Shown in pieces: positions 34,189 through 48,733 of a stretch of 64,000 bases of DNA. The notes beneath the pieces were generated by a model, which did no database searches, was not told where the DNA came from, and saw only the letters and a program-made list of their open reading frames with translations. Numbering within the stretch: position 1 is the stretch's first letter; each line of letters opens with the position of its first letter. The DNA comes from Methanosarcinales archaeon (GTDB lineage Archaea; Halobacteriota; UBA148; JAUWXC01), in NCBI GenBank assembly GCA_026016205.1, contig CP061209.1, positions 305,469 to 369,468 on the forward strand, read 5' to 3'. The position numbers and the translations under genes were made by a program.

Positions 34189-35631
34189 CTAAAACACATC
34201 ATCCTGCATATAACTCCTTCCAAGTTTTAAAGCCAATTCTGCCTTCATCAATTCTCGCCCCAGATAAGCGGCATGTTCAGTCAAAGATACAAATCCTAAA
34301 TCCTGTATGGTATCAAAAACGGCTTTGGCACTGGTGCCAGTTATGGTTATATCCTTCTCCTCGTGCTTGGCGACAATTTCCCCCTCCTGAAGCGAAATTC
34401 TAAAGCACCCCTTGGGGTCCTGTGTCCATTCTTTATGTGGTGTCGCTTCAACAGGATTTTCAACCTCTATTGCATCTTCCCTGCGCCTTTTCTCCTTGAT
34501 GATTAGGAGGTCTAATCCCAGATCCTTGGGGGCGGTGCCTCTCTCTTTAGCAAGAAGCATCATCTGGGCAGCAGTCTTAAGTTCCTTGATACTTCCTTTT
34601 GCCTTGTCGCTGTATTGGGGTGTGAATAGTATGCTGGCGCCAATCTCCATGGCTATGCCTGCCAGGGTTGCGTTGATACCAATAGAATCGGCATCCATCA
34701 GTTCTGTGATGTTTCCCGCACCGAAGAACAGCGGTAAATCGCTCGCCTCTCTAAATTTGTGATAAGATGTTAGCGAATCGACGAATCCATGCCCTATTGG
34801 GGCAAGAATCGGGTCTGCGATGATTCTCTTGATTCCGATTTCCTGCGCCACCTCTATATTTTTCAGCAGGCTTTCGAAATTGTCATCCGGCATCACCACA
34901 GCCGCTACACCCTGTGATGCGATTGCCCAGCCCACTGATTTGATATTGTCGCTGTTCAAGCTGAGCACCATGTCTGCGCCTGCTTCAACGCCTGCCAAAA
35001 TTAGATTCGGGTCCAGAGTATCGATGCTGATTGGAGCGCCTAAAGAGGAAACAGTCTCAACAGCACGCCTTACTTCAGCAGGAGTGGCATCCATGGGGAT
35101 TCCGAGATCGATGATGTCTGCGCCCTCATGAAGGTAACGTTCTGCAATTCTATGAAGATCCTCCTCGCCTAATCGGGTTGCGTCCACGATTTCCCCCATC
35201 ACTTTCATCCTGGAGTTGCCGCCAATTTTTACATCTTTAATGGTGAACTGTGGCTCTGCGTGTTCTTCCAGTCGATGAATCTTTTCCAGCGCATCGCTGC
35301 GCTTTTTGCCTGATAACAATTGGCACGCGGGTATGGTGTGCGAAAATTCAATCCCATCAACGTATTGTAGTGCCCAGCCAAGATCGCATGCATGTTTGGG
35401 TCCCAGTCGTATCTTGACGCCGAGTTCTTTCTCAAGAGATGCAAAATCACCTGTTGTCAGGCCGGGAATGAGGATTAGGTCGTATGAACTTATATTTGGA
35501 ATCGTTCGTAATAGCGAGGGCGTGATGAGCGCAGCCACATCTACGTCTAGTAAAAGAACATCCGCCTTATCGCCAACCGCACTTTTTACCGAATCATATG
35601 CCCTATGTCCAGTCGTCACCAAAATGCGCAT
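34189..35631 (-). CDS. Dihydropteroate synthase-like protein (methanopterin-associated)
   Basis: A 480-residue protein. An N-terminal domain (about 1-130, starting RILVTTGHRAYDSVKSAV) precedes a TIM barrel related to dihydropteroate synthase, with EGADIIDLGIPMDATPAEV, SIDTLDPNLILAGVEAGADMVLSLN and PILAPIGHGF. A C-terminal domain follows. Homologues occur in organisms with tetrahydromethanopterin, including methylotrophic bacteria, so a pterin role is likely; the reaction is uncertain. It is divergent from the PHP gene. Confidence 0.8.
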   Translation of the reverse strand: MRILVTTGHRAYDSVKSAVGDKADVLLLDVDVAALITPSLLRTIPNISSYDLILIPGLTTGDFASLEKELGVKIRLGPKHACDLGWALQYVDGIEFSHTIPACQLLSGKKRSDALEKIHRLEEHAEPQFTIKDVKIGGNSRMKVMGEIVDATRLGEEDLHRIAERYLHEGADIIDLGIPMDATPAEVRRAVETVSSLGAPISIDTLDPNLILAGVEAGADMVLSLNSDNIKSVGWAIASQGVAAVVMPDDNFESLLKNIEVAQEIGIKRIIADPILAPIGHGFVDSLTSYHKFREASDLPLFFGAGNITELMDADSIGINATLAGIAMEIGASILFTPQYSDKAKGSIKELKTAAQMMLLAKERGTAPKDLGLDLLIIKEKRRREDAIEVENPVEATPHKEWTQDPKGCFRISLQEGEIVAKHEEKDITITGTSAKAVFDTIQDLGFVSLTEHAAYLGRELMKAELALKLGRSYMQDDVF

Positions 35632-35675: not shown

Positions 35676-36347
35676 ATGCTTCGATTTGACTTGCATATTC
35701 ATTCGAATTTTTCGCGCGATGGATATGATTCAGTAGATACGATTCTTAAACGCGCCAAGGAGATTGGGTTGCATGGCATTGCAATCACCGACCATAATAC
35801 GGTTGAAGGTGGGTTAACTGCGATAAAGAGGGCAAAAGACCTTGGACTGGATTTGATGGTGATTCCCGGAGTTGAAGTTTCCACCGCTGAAGGCCATCTC
35901 GTTGCGCTTGGCATTACCAAGGACATCCCGCCCGACTTGCCCGTGGACGAAACGATTAAAATCATAAAGGGATTGGGCGGGATCGTCATCGTGCCCCACC
36001 CATTTCATCCGTTCAGGCATGGGTTGGGTTACGTTCCAAAGGATGTAGACGCTGTCGAGGTGTACAACTCCAGGTCTATCCTAGGTTATTCAAATGAGCG
36101 TGCAAGGAATGCTGCAGCGCGCATGGGCATGAGCATGGTCGCCGGCTCTGATGCGCATACTGCGTCTATGGTTGGCTATGCGATAACGGAGATAAACGCA
36201 AAGCCAGATGTGGGTGACGTTTTAGACGCGATTAAGGTAGGGGGCACCAAGATAAGGGCAAAAAAGATTCCATTGCATATATTTGCTAAACAAAGTATTA
36301 GGGGCGTGCCGCGCCGCATACATCGATTTATTTCAAAGCACCGTTAG
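35676..36347 (+). CDS. PHP-domain metal-dependent phosphoesterase
   Basis: A 223-residue PHP-domain protein with FDLHIHSNFSRDGYDS (first HxH), GIAITDHNTVEG, a Glu in IPGVEVST, VPHPFHP and GSDAHTASMVGYA, all metal ligands of the fold. The family includes TrpH/RNase AM-type nucleases and phosphatases. This one is short and lacks the inserted domain of TrpH, so the substrate is open. It converges with the flavoprotein gene, overlapping it by 15 bases. Confidence 0.88.
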   Translation: MLRFDLHIHSNFSRDGYDSVDTILKRAKEIGLHGIAITDHNTVEGGLTAIKRAKDLGLDLMVIPGVEVSTAEGHLVALGITKDIPPDLPVDETIKIIKGLGGIVIVPHPFHPFRHGLGYVPKDVDAVEVYNSRSILGYSNERARNAAARMGMSMVAGSDAHTASMVGYAITEINAKPDVGDVLDAIKVGGTKIRAKKIPLHIFAKQSIRGVPRRIHRFISKHR

Positions 36348-37016
36348 GATTTTGCTCGGACGCTCCAAGACAGTGATGCCTTTCATGGAGCGCAGTGTTT
36401 CTACGTTGTGCGCATCAACATCGCGTATGCGCAGCATCACATTCCCTCCCTTAATGGCATTGTGCGGGCAAAGGTCAATGCAGACACCACACCCAGTGCA
36501 TTTTAACAGGTCAATCTGGTCCAAGATTGCATGTTCCGGGCACTTATCCTTTGGCGGACATTCATCGCACTTTTTGCAAAGCTCCCTGTCTATATGATAC
36601 GGAAGCGGCGATGTTACCTCTCCGCTTATATCTACAGGCACTATGTAAACCGGCGTCCCACTTTTGTTGGCTTGCGCAACTGCATTCGTGATAAGAGAAT
36701 CCGCAATTCCGTGCACGATTTTGGCAACCGTGTTAGACGTTGCAGGTGAGACGATCAGCGCATCGTACTTGCCCAGCAGGAAGCGCCCTGCTTTTGGCGC
36801 GCTCGCTCCCGCTTCGCTCTCGAAGATGATTTCGCGCAGATATTCCCCGTTAGATATCTCGCCCAATTTATTGAATAGACTGTACATATACAGCACTTCT
36901 TCACCTGCACGCGATACAAACGTGGTGATTTGATGCTTCTGTGCGAGTGCTCTCATAGCACCATAGCTTTCCTGCAGAAAATGCCCTGCGCCGGTAATGC
37001 CCCATGCGATGTTCAT
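36333..37016 (-). CDS. Archaeoflavoprotein with ferredoxin domain (DmrX/MJ0208 type)
   Basis: A 227-residue flavoprotein of the Dfp/UbiX-like fold (WGITGAGHFLQESY; SPATSNTVAKIVHGIADSLITNA) followed by a ferredoxin-like part with CKKCDECPPKDKC and CTGCGVCIDLC (about residues 143-185). Related proteins reduce dihydromethanopterin to tetrahydromethanopterin in Methanosarcina. The assignment is by domain layout and neighbours. It overlaps the DUF447 stop by 4 bases, so they form an operon. Confidence 0.82.
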   Translation of the reverse strand: MNIAWGITGAGHFLQESYGAMRALAQKHQITTFVSRAGEEVLYMYSLFNKLGEISNGEYLREIIFESEAGASAPKAGRFLLGKYDALIVSPATSNTVAKIVHGIADSLITNAVAQANKSGTPVYIVPVDISGEVTSPLPYHIDRELCKKCDECPPKDKCPEHAILDQIDLLKCTGCGVCIDLCPHNAIKGGNVMLRIRDVDAHNVETLRSMKGITVLERPSKILTVL

Positions 37017-37576
37017 TGAATGCTCTCCTCCAACCTTCTCATCGCCTCTTTCTCGCGTTCACCGCCGCACTTTTTCACGATTTCCTCGTAATGCGCAATC
37101 CACTCTAGATATTTTTCATCCTTCGTAGCCAGATATCGCGTAGCATGTACTGTTGCCTCGATGATGGCATTGGCGCCCCTGTTGATTGTCCTCGCTCTCT
37201 TTCGAAGGATTTTGCCCTTTATGGGATGCAAATATATCAGGGTATTATCTTGCTTGTCCTCCTCACATTCAAATAATGCCCAGGCATCTGCGTATCTCAA
37301 TGCTGGCATTTCATCGACTGTGTAAAACTCCTTCTCGTCTAAATCTCCTAACGCGGATAACACGAACAGCAACGGGTCACTCACGACATTTGCAACAAGT
37401 TTTTTTGTTGCCTTAATGTTTGAGTAAGTGTGCGTATTGGGATATATTCTGGCGTACATCTTTCCATCAGATATAATGCCAATCGGCGCAGCGTTTGGCT
37501 TTCCAGTTGATGATATTGTGGTGGCAATGACCTCTGATATGCCCTCTAGGATGCCAAAATCACGCAGTTTCATCAT
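37013..37576 (-). CDS. DUF447-family protein (flavin-reductase-like fold)
   Basis: A 187-residue protein starting MMKLRDFGILEGISEVIATT, with NAAPIGIISDGKMYARIYPNTHTYSNIK, matching archaeal DUF447, which has a split-barrel FMN-binding-like core. The family is also present in tetrahydromethanopterin gene clusters of methylotrophic bacteria, as far as I recall. The biochemical step is unknown to me. It overlaps both neighbours by a few bases. Confidence 0.8.
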   Translation of the reverse strand: MMKLRDFGILEGISEVIATTISSTGKPNAAPIGIISDGKMYARIYPNTHTYSNIKATKKLVANVVSDPLLFVLSALGDLDEKEFYTVDEMPALRYADAWALFECEEDKQDNTLIYLHPIKGKILRKRARTINRGANAIIEATVHATRYLATKDEKYLEWIAHYEEIVKKCGGEREKEAMRRLEESIQ

Positions 37577-38402
37577 ATTCCTCCAGAAGATGCACGAACA
37601 GGGAGGCTGCTACGATGTCTGCCGTTGTACCCGGATTTACTCTCCCGCGAATCAATTCGTCATCAAATCGGCGTATGGCATCGATACCCTGCTCTTTCAG
37701 CACTGCGGATGCCTTTCTACTAACCTCTTCTGCTACTGACGAGCCGAACTTCTTTTGAACCAGGGTGTCGGGCCGCTCTGCAAGTAGTGTCAGATAACTA
37801 TGCACAATGGCATCGTTAATGCCCATCTCTTTTACCTTTTCCGCTAACATCCTGGCACCAGCGAATGTCCTTGGAAAACCACGCACCCATTCCTGCGCGA
37901 TTCCGTCCTGCCCTGCAGACATTTTCATGATATCATACAGTGTCAATCCTCTCCTCTCAATCTCATCAATTGATTTCGCATCCTTCACACTCAAATCATC
38001 AGCGTCCTCTAAATACACGTCAACGCATTTGAATGCTTTATAAAATTCAACTGCATCCTTGGCCGTAGTTTTTTGCACGATTTCGTTTGCCTGATGAACA
38101 TCTCCTTTGCCGGCTGCCACGGTCAACGGCATTAGCAAGAGAAATGTGCCAAAATGCGTGTTTTTACCCCCGTTCCATCTCGCGCTCTCTTCGATAGCCT
38201 CCCTAATCAGTGTCCCTACCCCTACATTGCTCATAGCAGCCTTCTCGAACACAGACCCAACGCCGATTGCAGATGCCAAAAAATGACCATATGTGATATC
38301 AGGAAAATCATGGTCTTTATCAACGTTGCCCGGTTTTGGCGTGGCGGAAACTTCCAACATCATGGCAAGTTGGGCGCATCTGGCGATGTGTTTCGGATTC
38401 AT
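37560..38402 (-). CDS. CitG-like (triphosphoribosyl-dephospho-CoA synthase family) protein
   Basis: About 280 residues of the CitG/MdcB fold, with CAQLAMMLEVSATPKPGNVDKDHDF near the start and GKNTHFGTFLLLMPL. Bacterial CitG makes a citrate-lyase cofactor from ATP and dephospho-CoA, but no citrate lyase is visible, and archaeal copies often sit near methanopterin genes. A related nucleotide or cofactor transfer is likely. The start at 38402 follows GGAGG; the longer frame to 38492 would overlap fic. Confidence 0.82.
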   Translation of the reverse strand: MNPKHIARCAQLAMMLEVSATPKPGNVDKDHDFPDITYGHFLASAIGVGSVFEKAAMSNVGVGTLIREAIEESARWNGGKNTHFGTFLLLMPLTVAAGKGDVHQANEIVQKTTAKDAVEFYKAFKCVDVYLEDADDLSVKDAKSIDEIERRGLTLYDIMKMSAGQDGIAQEWVRGFPRTFAGARMLAEKVKEMGINDAIVHSYLTLLAERPDTLVQKKFGSSVAEEVSRKASAVLKEQGIDAIRRFDDELIRGRVNPGTTADIVAASLFVHLLEEYDETA

Positions 38403-38463
38403 GAACGCCTCCTCACTTTCCCAATTAATACTTGGCCAGTTCAACGATAAATCTTGCCAGACC

Positions 38464-39387
38464 TCACTTTTCCCTCTTTTCAAATTCTCCATATGCTTTG
38501 AAATACTCCTTCTTGATGTAGTAGATGAACGGCTTTTCTATTTCCTTTATCTGGCATCTTTCCAATGAATCATAATAATCTTCCCTATCTCTGTATCTAA
38601 CATTGAGCATTGGAAAATCGTGTTTTTTCAGCATGAAATTCATCAAAAGACGTGAGATTCTACCATTTCCGTCCACAAAGGGGTGTATCGTCACAAATTT
38701 TAGATGGACTAGAGATGCTAATTCTAAGGGATGCAGAGTTTTTCTTGCTTTCTCATACCATCTGAAAAATTCCTCTAGTTCCTGATATAACACAGCATAA
38801 CTTGGAGGTTTAAACTCTGAACCATAGATCGCAACATCCACCTTTCTAATGGTTCCAGCAATCTCATCATCTATCCCTGTCATCAGGGTTTTATGCAATC
38901 TTAGAATGAATTTGAGGCTGATGTTTTTTTTGTAATTGAGCATCAGATCAAAGCATCTCTCCATGTTCTGAGCCTCGAGGATTTCCTCAATCATTTTTCC
39001 TTTCGGCGTGATACCATCTACCAAAATCAGAGAGGTATCTTTCAGTGTTAACGTACTGCCCTCTATGGCGTTCGTATTATATGTGAATTTCACTAAAAAA
39101 TTCCTCATGTACTTCTCTTTTTCAGATTTGGAGAACTGGGAGTAATTCCTGTTAAAATTCTTTTTGATGCTCTCTAGCCTTCGAACGTCCTCGAGAGATA
39201 GATACTTGGATTTTGTGGTAGTTAACTCTCGTAAAAAATCCTTTTTTATTCTATCCAATTCTACTGCACTTGGCAATTCTTTACCTATGTATCTACTCTT
39301 TTTTAAGAATTTGTTGCCTACTCTGACTGTGTGGAAGAAATACCAATACTCTCTACCTTTTATCTTTACCCTTTTTAGATATGCCAC
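38464..39387 (-). CDS. Fic-family AMP-transferase
   Basis: A 307-residue Fic protein with an intact catalytic motif HPFVDGNGR (residues 235-243) in a core that transfers AMP or a similar group to proteins. TNAIEG at 105-110 fits the autoinhibitory [S/T]xxxE[G/N] motif of N-terminally inhibited Fic proteins. The N terminus is a small basic domain. Direct repeats around its promoter suggest control. The role may be toxin-like or regulatory. Confidence 0.88.
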   Translation of the reverse strand: MAYLKRVKIKGREYWYFFHTVRVGNKFLKKSRYIGKELPSAVELDRIKKDFLRELTTTKSKYLSLEDVRRLESIKKNFNRNYSQFSKSEKEKYMRNFLVKFTYNTNAIEGSTLTLKDTSLILVDGITPKGKMIEEILEAQNMERCFDLMLNYKKNISLKFILRLHKTLMTGIDDEIAGTIRKVDVAIYGSEFKPPSYAVLYQELEEFFRWYEKARKTLHPLELASLVHLKFVTIHPFVDGNGRISRLLMNFMLKKHDFPMLNVRYRDREDYYDSLERCQIKEIEKPFIYYIKKEYFKAYGEFEKREK

Positions 39388-40354: not shown

Positions 40355-40415
40355 GATTTCATCTGCTCCCGCCAAACCAATATATCCATCTAATATGAAG
40401 TATTACTTGTTGGCG

Positions 40416-41609
40416 ATGAAGGTTATCAGAGACCCTATTCATGGGTATATCGTATTAGACGATCTTGCGCTGGCGCTGATTGACACGCCAGAAATGCAAA
40501 GACTGAGGCGCATCAGGCAACTTGGTTTATCCAACTTCGTCTATCCAGGGGCGAATCATACCAGATTTGAGCATTCGCTTGGCACATTACACCTTACAGA
40601 CCAACTCCTACATCAATTACAGGTAACGGGTCCAGAGCGAGATGAAGTTAGGGCGGCTGCGTTGTTACACGATATTGGGCATGGACCGTTCTCACATGCC
40701 ACGGAAGAGTTGATACGTCAGCGTACAGGCAAGGGTCATGATGATGTGGAAGGACGGATTTCAAATGGTGCGATTGCAAACGTGCTAAAAGCACATTCGC
40801 TGGATTCTGTGCGTATCGCTCAACTTATCCAAGGCGAAACGGCATATGGGCAGCTGATAAACAGCGAGATCGATGTGGACAAAATGGATTACCTGGTGAG
40901 GGACGCTCATTATACGGGCGTCGCATATGGGACCATCGATTATGTGCGACTGATACACGAAATGGAACTTTGTGAAGAGCAACTGGTCATAAGAGAGGGT
41001 GGCATCCAGGCAGCGGAATCCTTGCTTGTCTCGCGTTTCTTGATGCATCCAACCGTGTATTATCACCATGTGAGCAGGATCGCAGAGGCGATGTTCGCGC
41101 ATGCAATTGAGGAGTTAATCCGCTCCGGATTGGACCCTGTGGAGTTGAGCGGGATGGACGATTATGAGCTGATGATGCTACTACGCAGTTCCAAAGGTTA
41201 TTCCAAGGAAATATGTGAGCGTATGGATAACCGCAGATTGTTCAAAAGGGCGCTCTATGTAGGCAAGGACTCTGTAAACGTGGAGCGGATGCTGAAGCTC
41301 AGGGACGAAGCCAGAAAAGTGGAGAGCGAAATTGCTAAAGAATCTGGTGTTCCAGAAGGTCATGTGCTGTTGGATATCCCTAAGCGGCCAGAAATGATTG
41401 AGATGAAGGCCAGGGTCATGGTTAACGGCGAGATGAAGCGCCTGGACGAGATATCACATCTCGTTCGCATCCTGGTGGACGCACAGTGGGACAACTGGAA
41501 GTTGGGCGTCTATGCGCCAGAGGAGTACAAGGAAAAGGTGGGAGAGGCAGCAAGCATCATACTAAGCGTCAGAAAACCGCCCGTTCAACATAAATTATCA
41601 GGGGATTAA
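40416..41609 (+). CDS. HD-domain phosphohydrolase (SAMHD1/COG1078-like)
   Basis: About 397 residues of the dGTPase-like HD family: KVIRDPIHGYI, TRFEHSLGTLHL (His), LLHDIGHGPFSHATEEL (HD pair) and SEIDVDKMDYLVRDAHYTG (Asp). SAMHD1 and related proteins hydrolyse dNTPs; the archaeal substrate is unproven. The start at 40416 fits the family; a Met 7 codons earlier is possible, while the longer open frame overlaps cofD. It ends directly before ubiX. Confidence 0.9.
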   Translation: MKVIRDPIHGYIVLDDLALALIDTPEMQRLRRIRQLGLSNFVYPGANHTRFEHSLGTLHLTDQLLHQLQVTGPERDEVRAAALLHDIGHGPFSHATEELIRQRTGKGHDDVEGRISNGAIANVLKAHSLDSVRIAQLIQGETAYGQLINSEIDVDKMDYLVRDAHYTGVAYGTIDYVRLIHEMELCEEQLVIREGGIQAAESLLVSRFLMHPTVYYHHVSRIAEAMFAHAIEELIRSGLDPVELSGMDDYELMMLLRSSKGYSKEICERMDNRRLFKRALYVGKDSVNVERMLKLRDEARKVESEIAKESGVPEGHVLLDIPKRPEMIEMKARVMVNGEMKRLDEISHLVRILVDAQWDNWKLGVYAPEEYKEKVGEAASIILSVRKPPVQHKLSGD

Positions 41610-42164
41610 ATGAAGGTAGTAATTGGAATAAGCGGTGCATCTGGTGCACAATATGGCATACGATTGCTAGAGGTGCTGAAAGGTCACGAGACATATCTAG
41701 TCATTTCTAAAACTGCGAAGCAGATTATCGAGGTTGAAACTGGATATAGTGCTAGCGATGTTACGAGGCTTGCATCTCATGTTTACGCCAATGATGACCT
41801 TGCTGCCGATATTGCATCAGGCTCATGCAAGTTCGACGCGATGGTCGTTGCACCATGCAGCATGAAGACGTTAGGAGCGATTGCAAACGGCATTTCCGAT
41901 ACGCTAATCGCGCGCGTTGCTGATATATGCCTAAAAGAAGGGCGAACGTTAGTCTTGGTGCCAAGGGAAACGCCTCTCAGCCTTATTCACTTGAGGAATA
42001 TGACTGGGGTAAAGGAAGCGGGAGCGATGATATTGCCTGCCTGTCCCGGATTTTATCCCAGACCAAAAAATGTTTCTGACGTCATCGATTTCATCGTGGG
42101 GCGCATTCTTGATGTTCTGGGTATTGAACACGAGTTATACAAGCGCTGGGAGGGCATACATTGA
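41610..42164 (+). CDS. ubiX: Flavin prenyltransferase (UbiX family)
   Basis: A 184-residue UbiX with GISGASGAQYGIRLLEVL, VVAPCSMKTLGAIANGISDTLIARVAD and LVPRETPLSLIHLRNM. It prenylates FMN to give the cofactor of UbiD decarboxylases. Its stop overlaps the ubiD start, and both precede the AcnX genes. In that setting it supplies cofactor for the decarboxylase of the archaeal mevalonate route. Confidence 0.95.
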   Translation: MKVVIGISGASGAQYGIRLLEVLKGHETYLVISKTAKQIIEVETGYSASDVTRLASHVYANDDLAADIASGSCKFDAMVVAPCSMKTLGAIANGISDTLIARVADICLKEGRTLVLVPRETPLSLIHLRNMTGVKEAGAMILPACPGFYPRPKNVSDVIDFIVGRILDVLGIEHELYKRWEGIH

Positions 42165-43426
42165 GTTTTAGAGGTTTCATCCAGCAATTGGCGGAAGCCG
42201 GCAACTTGGTTGAGATTCATAAACCCCTATCGCCCAATCTGGAAGCGCCAGCGATGGCAAAAAAGGCAGGACAACCGATTCTGTTCCATAATGTGAACGG
42301 CTCAAAGGCCGTGATGAACCTTCTAAACTCGCGCGATGTATTGGCTATGGTGTTGGATACGTCTCCTAATGGCCTCATTGACAAACTTCTCAGCATCAAA
42401 AAAGGAAGTACCGTTATAGTAGATGATTCGCCAACGAAGGAAGTTGTTTCCGAGCCGGACCTGAGCAAACTTCCCATAATGACTCACTTCGACAAAGACG
42501 GCGCACCATACATAACTGCAGGTGTGCTTGTATCCGAGTTTGAAGGCGTTATGAATGCGTCTGTACATAGATTGATGGTGCTCAGCAAGACTGAGCTGGT
42601 AGCAAGACTGGTGGCGCCACGTCATACATATCTTCTACACAAAAAGGCGTCAGAGCAGGGGAAGCCATTACCGGTAGCGATTGCGATAGGCATCGATCCA
42701 ATCACCATGTTCGCTGTATGCACCAGGGTGCCCGTAGGGGAGGAGTTCAATTATGCATCTATGTTGGGAAGGGCACCAGTTGAATTATTCAGATGCGAGA
42801 ATGGTATTCATGTGCCGCATGCTGAAATCGTATTGGAGGGTTACATTCATCCGACGAGGCGCGCCCCAGAAGGTCCTTTTGTGGACATCACCGGCACGTA
42901 TGACCTCGTGAGAAACGAACCTGTGATAGAATTGACGAGAATGATGCACCGCAAGGACTTCATCTATCATGGCATTCTTCCCGCTGGGGGTGAGCACAAA
43001 CTTTTGATGGGCGTGCCGTATGAACCGAAGATTTACGAAGCGGTCAGTAAGGTCGCCAAGGTGAAAAATGTCATACTGCCGGAAGGAGGATGTTGCTATC
43101 TTCACGCCCTTGTTCAGATTGAGAAGCAGAAGGAAGAGGATGGCAAAAATGCGATATTGGCTGCACTTTCCGCACACCACAGCCTGAAACATGTGATGGT
43201 TGTCGATGACGACATAAACATCTTCGATCCAAATGATGTCGAATACGCGATGGCAACACGAGTGAGAGGTGACAGGGATATCATGATGCTTCCGCATGTC
43301 AGAGGCTCATCACTGGACCCGTGCAATGCACCAGATGGCACGACTACCAAGATGGGCATTGACGCTACCAAGCCCCTTGGTGAAGAAAAATTTGAGAGGG
43401 CTACGAACCGTTTTGAAAAAGCTTGA
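42161..43426 (+). CDS. UbiD-family decarboxylase, probable anhydromevalonate phosphate decarboxylase
   Basis: A 421-residue prenyl-FMN decarboxylase. Typical features are EIHKPLSPNLEAPAMAKK at the N terminus, APEGPFVDITGTYDLV and IELTRMMHRKDFIYHGIL. In Archaea with the modified mevalonate pathway a UbiD protein turns trans-anhydromevalonate 5-phosphate into isopentenyl phosphate. The adjacent UbiX and AcnX subunits make this the best reading. An aromatic acid decarboxylase is the alternative. Confidence 0.88.
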   Translation: MSFRGFIQQLAEAGNLVEIHKPLSPNLEAPAMAKKAGQPILFHNVNGSKAVMNLLNSRDVLAMVLDTSPNGLIDKLLSIKKGSTVIVDDSPTKEVVSEPDLSKLPIMTHFDKDGAPYITAGVLVSEFEGVMNASVHRLMVLSKTELVARLVAPRHTYLLHKKASEQGKPLPVAIAIGIDPITMFAVCTRVPVGEEFNYASMLGRAPVELFRCENGIHVPHAEIVLEGYIHPTRRAPEGPFVDITGTYDLVRNEPVIELTRMMHRKDFIYHGILPAGGEHKLLMGVPYEPKIYEAVSKVAKVKNVILPEGGCCYLHALVQIEKQKEEDGKNAILAALSAHHSLKHVMVVDDDINIFDPNDVEYAMATRVRGDRDIMMLPHVRGSSLDPCNAPDGTTTKMGIDATKPLGEEKFERATNRFEKA

Positions 43427-43433
43427 GGTCAAG

Positions 43434-44582
43434 ATGCATCTTACAAAAGAGGAAGAGGCAATCTACAATGGCGAGTTTGGCGCAACAAAACAAAAAGCCA
43501 TGGAAATACTCGTTGCATTGGGTGACATCTATGGCGCCGAATCTTTGATTGAAATAGAGAGTGCGCAAATATCGGGAGTTTCTTATAAAACCATAGGCGA
43601 TGCTGGCTTGGAGTGGATTTCAAGTTTGGATGGAGAGGTGAAGGTTCCTGCCATGCTGAATCCTATGGGGATGGACATGGAAAAGTGGAGTGCAATGGGC
43701 GTTTCAGAAGCATTCGCGGCAAAGCAAAAAGAGATATTAAAAGTCTATGAACGACTCGGCATTTCCCTAGAGTGCACATGTACCCCGTACTACCTCAATC
43801 CGCCTGCATTCGGCGCTCATCTTGCCTGGGCAGAATCATCTGCGGTGGCATATGCGAACTCCGTCTTGGGAGCGAGGACAAATAGGGAAGCCGGTCCAAG
43901 TGCCTTGGCGGCAGCACTAATAGGGAAAACTCCTTGCTATGGGCTCCACTTAGATGAAAACAGGGCTCCAGAGGTGCTGGTAAGGGTTGATGCAGAACTG
44001 CATGACGCGGATTATGGCGCATTAGGATATGCAGTTGGAAAGATAGTTGGTGATAAAGTGCCTCTGTTCAGATTGCCGTTAAGTCCGAGCAAGGATGAAC
44101 TCAAAGCGCTCGGCGCTGCCTTGGGGGCCTCAGGGGCGGTCGCACTTTATCACGTAGAGGGTGTCACGCCAGAGTCCAGCAATTTTGACGTGCCTATAGA
44201 ATGCATATCTGTGGACTCAGAGGACATCAAGAAAGCATATGGTGGCAACACGCCAGATTTAGTTGCACTTGGCTGTCCGCACTGCTCGGGTGCTGAGTTA
44301 GGCAAAATCGCGGATTTACTGGAAGGTAAAAAAGCGCGTACTGAACTATGGATTTGCACATCTCGCAGGGTGAGGGAACAGAATAAGGAGATAGTAACGC
44401 GAATAGAGCAATGTGGCGCCAAAGTTATCTGCGATACGTGCATGGTGGTGTCGCCTGCCACTGAAAAATTTGAAAGGGTAATGGTGAACTCCGGCAAGGC
44501 TTTGCAGTATTTGCCTACTATGTGTGGCGTTGATGCCATGCTTGCAAACACCGAGGACTGCATAAAAACTGCGTGTGGTTAG
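43434..44582 (+). CDS. AcnX large subunit, probable phosphomevalonate dehydratase
   Basis: A 382-residue aconitase-X large subunit (DUF521). Cluster-ligand cysteines lie in CTCTPYYLNPP, LGCPHCSGAELGKI, and the late CDTCMVVSP and MCGVD. It begins HLTKEEEAIYNGEFG, as the family does. In Aeropyrum such a protein with its small subunit dehydrates mevalonate 5-phosphate. It lies 7 bases after ubiD and abuts the small subunit gene. Confidence 0.93.
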   Translation: MHLTKEEEAIYNGEFGATKQKAMEILVALGDIYGAESLIEIESAQISGVSYKTIGDAGLEWISSLDGEVKVPAMLNPMGMDMEKWSAMGVSEAFAAKQKEILKVYERLGISLECTCTPYYLNPPAFGAHLAWAESSAVAYANSVLGARTNREAGPSALAAALIGKTPCYGLHLDENRAPEVLVRVDAELHDADYGALGYAVGKIVGDKVPLFRLPLSPSKDELKALGAALGASGAVALYHVEGVTPESSNFDVPIECISVDSEDIKKAYGGNTPDLVALGCPHCSGAELGKIADLLEGKKARTELWICTSRRVREQNKEIVTRIEQCGAKVICDTCMVVSPATEKFERVMVNSGKALQYLPTMCGVDAMLANTEDCIKTACG

Positions 44583-44981
44583 ATGAAAGTCAAAGGAAGG
44601 ATGATATCTAAAGGAATTGCAAGTGGGCCAGCGCTGATGACATCTCAGCCGATTTCATTTCTCGGCGGTGTTGACCCGTCTACAGGGCAAATCGTCGAGC
44701 ATGGGCATGAATTGGAAGGAATTTCAATTAAGGATAAGGTTCTGATTTTTCCGCATGGCAAGGGCTCTACCGTCGGATCATATGTGATGTATCAACTCAA
44801 GAAAAATGGCGTCGCACCATGCGCGATAATCAATCTCAGATGTGAGGCGATAATTGCGATAGGTGCTATCATATCCGATATTCCAGCGGTGGATCAACTG
44901 GAGATTAACCCATTCGAGATAATCCACAATGGTGATATCATTCTGGTAAATGGGGCTGATGGGTATATTGAAGTCGAATAA
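44583..44981 (+). CDS. AcnX small subunit, probable phosphomevalonate dehydratase
   Basis: A 132-residue swivel-domain protein (DUF126) with the family stretch FPHGKGSTVGSYVMYQL (catalytic Ser) and PAVDQLEINPFEII. It completes the mevalonate 5-phosphate dehydratase with the preceding gene, whose stop it directly follows. In some organisms the two halves are fused; here they are separate, as in other Archaea. Confidence 0.92.
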   Translation: MKVKGRMISKGIASGPALMTSQPISFLGGVDPSTGQIVEHGHELEGISIKDKVLIFPHGKGSTVGSYVMYQLKKNGVAPCAIINLRCEAIIAIGAIISDIPAVDQLEINPFEIIHNGDIILVNGADGYIEVE

Positions 44982-47674: not shown

Positions 47675-48733
47675 TTAAATCACTTTGGTGGCTTTCGCGA
47701 GATTTTCTGCTGCCTTTCTGGTCAGTCCATCTCCCAGAATCGTGTATCTCTCCGGCCGAATTTCATGTGCGTGTACCAGTGCTTCAACGATGTAATGCTC
47801 ATCGATACCGAGCTCTTTCGCATTTGTCGGCGCTCCTACTGTTTTCAATGCATTCCTAATGAGTTGCCAGTCGCCGTTATGCAGGTACATCATCATAATC
47901 GTACCAACGCCGCATTGCTCGCCGTGTAACGCCGGCTTGGGCGCTATTTTATCCAATACATGGCTGAATTTGTGCTCCGAGCCGGAAGCAGGTCTACTGC
48001 TCCCAGCAATACTCATCGCCACTCCAGAAGAGATGAGCGCCTTGGTTACAATTCGCGCAGATTTTTCGAATCCAAGCTTGATTGATTCTGCTGCATCAAT
48101 CGTAATCTGTGCAGTCATCTGGGCGAGGGCTGTGGCATACTCGCTGTACTCTTCGCCATATAGTTTGTGTGCGAGTTGCCAGTCTTTTATCGCGGTGTAG
48201 TTTGAGATGATATCTCCGCAGCCGGATGCAAGCAGCCGGTATGGTGCAGATGCGATTATCTTTGTATCGGCGATTACGGCTAGCGGTGCCTGTGCAGATG
48301 CCGAAACGCTTCCTTTGCCCTGGGATATTGACGCCCTTGAAGATGCAATTCCATCATGGGATGCAGCTGTGGGGACACTCAAGAATGGTATATTTAATTG
48401 CATGGATGCGAGTTTGGCGGCGTCTATCGATTTGCCGCCTCCAACGCCGAGCAAAAAGGATGCCTTGCTCGCCTTTTCCTTTACCCTCTCAACCTCCTGC
48501 ATGGATGCAGACGAAATCTCGATTATGCTGGTGCCATGCCCTTCACTTGATATTATGTCAGCGACGGTCTCGCCTGCGATCTTCCTGGTGGTTGGGCCGG
48601 TTACCACTATCGCTTCTCCCTCCAGTCCAAGGTCTTTACAGACCTTGTCGACGCTGTTTATTGCATCATGCCCTATAACTACGTACCTCGGCAGTTGCAT
48701 CCATTTAGTGAGATTTAAGCCCTCTTGGTTCAA
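47675..48733 (-). CDS. egsA: sn-glycerol-1-phosphate dehydrogenase
   Basis: A 352-residue enzyme that makes the G1P backbone of archaeal lipids from dihydroxyacetone phosphate. It has [12 protein letters not shown] at the start, [15 protein letters not shown] (nucleotide motif near residue 98), [17 protein letters not shown] and [12 protein letters not shown]. It is the lipid counterpart of the mevalonate module 3 kb away and is divergent from the DUF63 gene. Confidence 0.95.

Follow-up and report, generated by a model that had tools for sequence, protein, structure and literature searches.

A Standard Archaeal Mevalonate Module and a Second Decarboxylase Candidate with an Altered Catalytic Residue in a Small Archaeal Genome and Its Relatives

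Gene Organization of the Locus

The window analyzed here is a stretch of 64,000 nucleotides from the genome of a Methanosarcinales archaeon. Between positions 41610 and 44981 it carries ubiX, ubiD, and the genes for the large and small subunits of AcnX as four contiguous genes on the plus strand (Table 1). Family searches returned E-values of 1e-35 to 1e-159 for the module genes, which excludes chance matches. The sequence-only reading had described four touching genes encoding UbiX, UbiD, and both AcnX subunits, and all of them lie where it had placed them, with scores far above curated cut-offs. Two gene starts were corrected. The ubiD gene starts with a TTG codon and overlaps the ubiX stop by 4 bases, and the large acnX gene was assigned the ATG that matches the start of its crystal-structure relative, as opposed to position 43296 for the longest ORF. 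The intergenic spacings are, in order, −4, +7, and 0 bases, and the four genes form one operon-like unit. The top PDB match of UbiX was 6m8v, a flavin prenyltransferase UbiX (E 8.5e-60), and UbiD carries the N, Rift, and C domains (PF20695, PF01977, and PF20696, respectively).

The HD-domain phosphohydrolase gene immediately upstream of ubiX is a conserved neighbor that is probably functionally outside the module. It is retained in a related family (f2) that lacks the module, so its linkage would be positional rather than functional. CofD is encoded divergently beyond the HD gene, and a metallophosphoesterase gene lies downstream of the module. The window also encodes glycerol-1-phosphate dehydrogenase, which belongs to the same pathway as the module (it makes the backbone of the isoprenoid-using archaeal ether lipids) but lies outside its operon. 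Near CofD, a minus-strand cluster encodes an AfpA-like flavoprotein with a ferredoxin domain, a DUF447 protein, and a CitG-like protein of the triphosphoribosyl-dephospho-CoA synthase family. The window further encodes a dihydropteroate synthase-like protein (TIGR00284); toward its C-terminal end there is a weak match to the MtrA subunit model.

Table 1. Coordinates of the features discussed (window positions unless a genome or contig handle is given).
Feature	Position	Strand	Evidence
Dihydropteroate synthase-like protein	34189-35631		TIGR00284
AfpA-like/DUF447/CitG-like cluster	36333-38492	-	
HD-domain phosphohydrolase	40368..41609	+	PF01966 and PF19276; abuts ubiX with no gap
ubiX, flavin prenyltransferase	41610..42164	+	TIGR00421, 249 bits, E 1.9e-74, cut-off 109
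ubiD, predicted anhydromevalonate phosphate decarboxylase (AMPD)	42161..43426	+	TIGR00148, 425 bits, E 3.5e-127
acnX large subunit, predicted phosphomevalonate dehydratase AcnX type II, domains 1-3	43434..44582	+	PF04412, 529 bits, E 6e-159
acnX small subunit, swivel domain of predicted phosphomevalonate dehydratase	44583..44981	+	PF01989, 119 bits, E 7e-35
Glycerol-1-phosphate dehydrogenase	47675..48733	-	NF002022, 536 bits, cut-off 413
PMD*, PMD-family gene	G000:C1:387395-388357	-	18 kb past the window end; phosphomevalonate decarboxylase model best
Decayed PMD* fragments, genus g4	L184:1045-1437; L185:1844-2323; L186:1105-1437; L187:704-853		
PMD homologues, genus g11	G017:C1:863933-864868, 1573794-1574738; G063:C1:1800472-1801407, 1020034-1020978		
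MVK-UbiD-AcnXL-AcnXS-IPK-UbiX, Aenigmatarchaeota MAG AUK145	L154:1256-6757		

Identity of the UbiD and AcnX Proteins

A family search identified a single UbiD in the 987 kb genome (assembly rated 86.8% complete). The protein is 65–68% identical to Methanosarcina copies that themselves adjoin acnX. The UbiD tree, which has some long deep branches and lacks the Aeropyrum pernix sequence, united the window protein with copies from Methanosarcina, Methanolobus, and Methanoperedens in a clade with support 100. This inner clade was nested in an archaeal branch (SH-aLRT 95), apart from the UbiDs of Bacillota and E. coli and from the indole-type enzyme; the protein groups with archaeal AMPDs rather than with aromatic UbiDs. 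Scores on the NCBIfam aromatic-type models were far below the cut-offs. Gene order was also compared. At nearly every Methanosarcina and Methanolobus locus checked, both acnX genes come after ubiD, and in Methanoperedens ubiX precedes ubiD. The window ubiX is joined to the cluster as in Methanoperedens, unlike in the Methanosarcina loci checked.

Among solved structures, the large AcnX subunit was closest to the T. kodakarensis AcnX with bound mevalonate phosphate (7cnr/7cns, E 2.8e-99), and bacterial cis-3-hydroxy-L-proline dehydratases ranked behind it. The small subunit matched 2hi6 and chain B of 7cnr. The large and small subunits are encoded by separate, adjacent genes (PF04412 and PF01989, 43434-44981), as in heterodimeric AcnX of type IIb. 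The Fe-S cysteines are kept as C116, C281, and C336 (Cys110, Cys283, and Cys342 in T. kodakarensis); the same cysteines hold the cluster in the T. kodakarensis AcnX, and mutagenesis showed this for the A. pernix enzyme too. "Site C" is occupied by V338 and not by a cysteine, as in type II enzymes. The small subunit has the motif GKGSTVGSY, with the catalytic Ser and the substrate-binding Thr, and Glu134, Ser135, Ser136, Asn76, Lys355, and Tyr359 are conserved as well. Substrate contacts were checked against the crystal structure (T. kodakarensis numbering: Gly48, Ser50, Asn53, Asn79, Glu129, Ser130, Lys361, and Tyr365), and all mevalonate-5-phosphate contacts are retained save Asn53, which is replaced by Thr. 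We rejected this replacement as a lost phosphate contact, as Thr occurs in all 15 other Halobacteriota and Aenigmatarchaeota sequences aligned. By these sequence features, the AcnX pair is assigned as a phosphomevalonate dehydratase, AcnX type II.

Mevalonate Pathway Genes Elsewhere in the Genome

The genome encodes the remainder of the pathway in two runs, HMGS-thiolase-DUF35 protein-HMGR and rpsB-MEMO-MVK-IPK-IDI2-RNase J-GGPP synthase. The assignments of HMGS, IDI-2, and GGPP synthase come from translations and gene order rather than from a family search. MVK and IPK, for which the sequence-only reading had proposed a genome search, are thus both present. That reading also called for the absence of a classical phosphomevalonate kinase (PMK) and of a diphosphomevalonate decarboxylase (DMD). 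The first part held, as no classical PMK was found among the GHMP kinases in a GHMP_kinases_N search of the 86.8% complete assembly. The four matches were MVK, shikimate kinase, beta-RFAP synthase, and pantoate kinase, and the last three, as weak GHMP matches, were rejected as PMK candidates. The second part needs qualification, since a decarboxylase homologue, of the PMD type and not the DMD type, is present.

This gene, referred to here as PMD*, lies outside the window (Table 1). Its product scored 270 bits on the phosphomevalonate decarboxylase (PMD) model, 167 on DMD, 98 on bisphosphomevalonate decarboxylase (MBD), and 43 on mevalonate 3-kinase (M3K). Although PMD was the best model, the score is under the NCBIfam cut-off of 475 bits, and the M3K score likewise lies under that model's cut-off of 440 bits. 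The closest solved structure was that of an Anaerolinea enzyme, 6n0x, which has been named as a PMD (PMC9254496), and identity to haloarchaeal PMDs is about 40%. PMD* keeps the residues of PMD-type specificity, namely KYHGL, which lacks the Lys of KYxGK, and TEEAH, with the His near the loop; the Lys/His signature separating PMD from DMD is taken from the literature (PMC11052028), and its position in the sequence was read here from our alignment. A basic residue is retained on the phosphotransfer loop. Where DMD, PMD, and MBD have a conserved catalytic Asp, each of the order's seven intact copies has Gln; the Asp is present in 23 of 23 haloarchaeal PMDs.

The seven PMD* copies form one clade (support 98), and the gene is vertically inherited within the order. 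In the genomes of the window's family (f1), omega was 0.09–0.12 for PMD*, 0.08–0.18 for UbiD, 0.12–0.19 for AcnX, and 0.16–0.28 for MVK. With PMD* as low as UbiD and AcnX, both routes are under purifying selection in f1. In the f2 pair, the omega of PMD* was 0.12.

Distribution of the Two Routes across the Order

We sampled 11 genomes of the order, 0.7–1.6 Mb in size ("Methanocellales archaeon" MAGs). Both the module and PMD* occur in family f1 (the window genus, four genomes) and in genus g3 (G006). Both genomes of family f2 encode PMD*, MVK, and IPK, and one of them (G001) also shows IDI-2 and GGPP synthase. Neither UbiD nor AcnX was found in f2, which was represented by two genomes, one near-complete (G001, a single 1.07 Mb contig, 97% complete) and one partial (G002, 76%). 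At the syntenic site, the HD gene is present in f2, as is CofD in G001, and the module is missing beside the HD gene.

Genus g4 shows the opposite pattern. The module is complete in three of its genomes (G007, G009, and G010), while the fourth (G008, 76% complete) has only acnX, at a contig end. In all four, PMD* is reduced to decayed fragments flanked by the genes for the ERCC4-like nuclease and SRP19, the same site that is occupied by the intact PMD* of G006. The simplest explanation of this distribution over f1, g3, f2, and g4 is an ancestor with both routes, from which f2 would have lost AcnX/UbiD and g4 PMD*. From the reciprocal loss, we infer that either route can stand in for the other and that PMD* is functional with Gln.

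Discussion

The four genes very likely constitute the standard archaeal mevalonate module, that is, mevalonate-5-phosphate dehydratase and AMPD, with enzyme activities predicted from sequence. AcnX would carry out the dehydration of mevalonate 5-phosphate, and UbiX would supply prenyl-FMN to UbiD, which would decarboxylate the anhydromevalonate phosphate intermediate to isopentenyl phosphate. IPK, encoded elsewhere with MVK, IDI-2, and GGPP synthase, would then phosphorylate isopentenyl phosphate to IPP. The sequence-only reading had recognized the enzyme set of this dehydration and decarboxylation variant, and the AcnX residues, the UbiD clade, and the flanking pathway genes support it. The archaeal (modified) mevalonate pathway known from A. 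pernix and M. mazei has the same two enzymes and the prenyl-FMN synthase; in M. mazei, the genes are MM_1526/MM_1525/MM_1524 with MM_1871 (PMC11816158). The AcnX/UbiD route is the dominant pathway in Archaea (PMC11052028), and the module by itself is ordinary, adding one more genome with the commonest archaeal isoprenoid route. A compact lower mevalonate operon was also seen in a DPANN genome, the Aenigmatarchaeota MAG AUK145 (Table 1).

What was unexpected is a second candidate enzyme for this conversion, with its catalytic residue altered, in this small genome and its relatives. PMD*, which the pathway of A. pernix and M. mazei does not have, would convert mevalonate 5-phosphate to isopentenyl phosphate in one ATP-dependent step, giving two candidate routes between these compounds in one genome. 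No publication on this order turned up in the literature searches. Like the PMD of the haloarchaea-type pathway, PMD* lacks the DMD Lys and has the PMD His, and f2 resembles that pathway in combining MVK, PMD*, and IPK without AcnX/UbiD. The order differs in having Gln for the conserved Asp of PMD, DMD, and MBD, and f1 and g3 also keep AcnX/UbiD. In a haloarchaeal-type genus (g11), each genome had two PMD homologues (Table 1) together with a UbiD relative (E about 1e-70), and the second PMD may have another role. The Thermoplasma-type pathway, with M3K and MBD, shares with PMD* the absence of the catalytic Asp in M3K; however, PMD* scores poorly on the M3K and MBD models, and the genome has MVK and a single DMD-family gene. 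Coexistence as such is not new, since Hodarchaeales with two pathway types also combine AMPD/AcnX with GHMP-family decarboxylase genes in one genome (PMC11052028). Theirs are a eukaryote-type PMK and DMD, whereas here the enzyme is of the PMD type, has an altered active site, and is part of a reciprocal loss.

Two other readings of the module were weighed. On the first, UbiD would be an aromatic-acid decarboxylase whose proximity to acnX is incidental; many bacteria use UbiX-UbiD pairs to decarboxylate phenolic acids, and such enzymes are among the PDB matches of UbiD. We consider this highly improbable, as the tree position, the low aromatic-type scores, the status of the protein as the sole UbiD found in the 86.8% complete assembly, and the adjacency to acnX, both in the window's order and at nearly all Methanosarcina and Methanolobus loci checked, speak against it. 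The earlier claim that this UbiD is of the isoprenoid type is supported by its place in the tree, its neighbors, and its being the only copy found in the genome. Alternatively, the module could be a remnant in f1, with PMD* doing the work and AcnX/UbiD disappearing as in f2, where the module is cleanly gone from the syntenic site. This also appears improbable, given the omega values of UbiD and AcnX in f1 pairs (0.08–0.19) and the fact that every f1 member has undisrupted reading frames and a complete set of active-site residues.

The role of PMD* is less certain. We somewhat favor an active decarboxylase that carries Gln at the Asp position, a prediction from sequence that is to be set against the possibility that it is no decarboxylase at all but an M3K-like mevalonate-phosphate 3-kinase or a regulatory relic, with the module carrying all the flux in the window genome. 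The Asp is also missing from M3K, a non-decarboxylating homologue, and the DMD of S. solfataricus (SsoDMD) became a kinase when its catalytic Asp was changed to Thr or Val (PMC9254496); the basic residue kept by PMD* belongs to a phosphotransfer loop. In Picrophilus MBD, both D309T and D309N abolish activity (PMC9254496). On the other hand, the D281N variant of SsoDMD stays active (PMC9254496), and Gln, like Asn, is an amide. The M3K model score of just 43 bits also speaks against a kinase, and such a role would leave f2, with no UbiD, no AcnX, and one DMD-family gene, without a known route from mevalonate 5-phosphate to isopentenyl phosphate. We therefore regard the kinase or relic reading as unlikely, though it is the main rival. 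The broader history is evenly poised on present evidence. In it, this uncultured order inherited both the AcnX/UbiD route and an ATP-dependent decarboxylase that works with Gln instead of a supposedly universal Asp; one family came to depend solely on that Gln enzyme, while in one genus its gene decayed in place.

So far, arguments on how the haloarchaea-type pathway replaced the archaea-type one have drawn on parsimony and on trees of the enzymes (PMC9254496, PMC11052028). The order described here includes genomes with both routes and with either one alone, plus pseudogene traces. If the proposed history is true, it would amount to a natural experiment on the exchange of one type of mevalonate pathway for another, with all three stages visible. 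PMD* also represents a naturally occurring active-site change in a much-studied family of decarboxylases, one that makes the necessity of the catalytic Asp testable.
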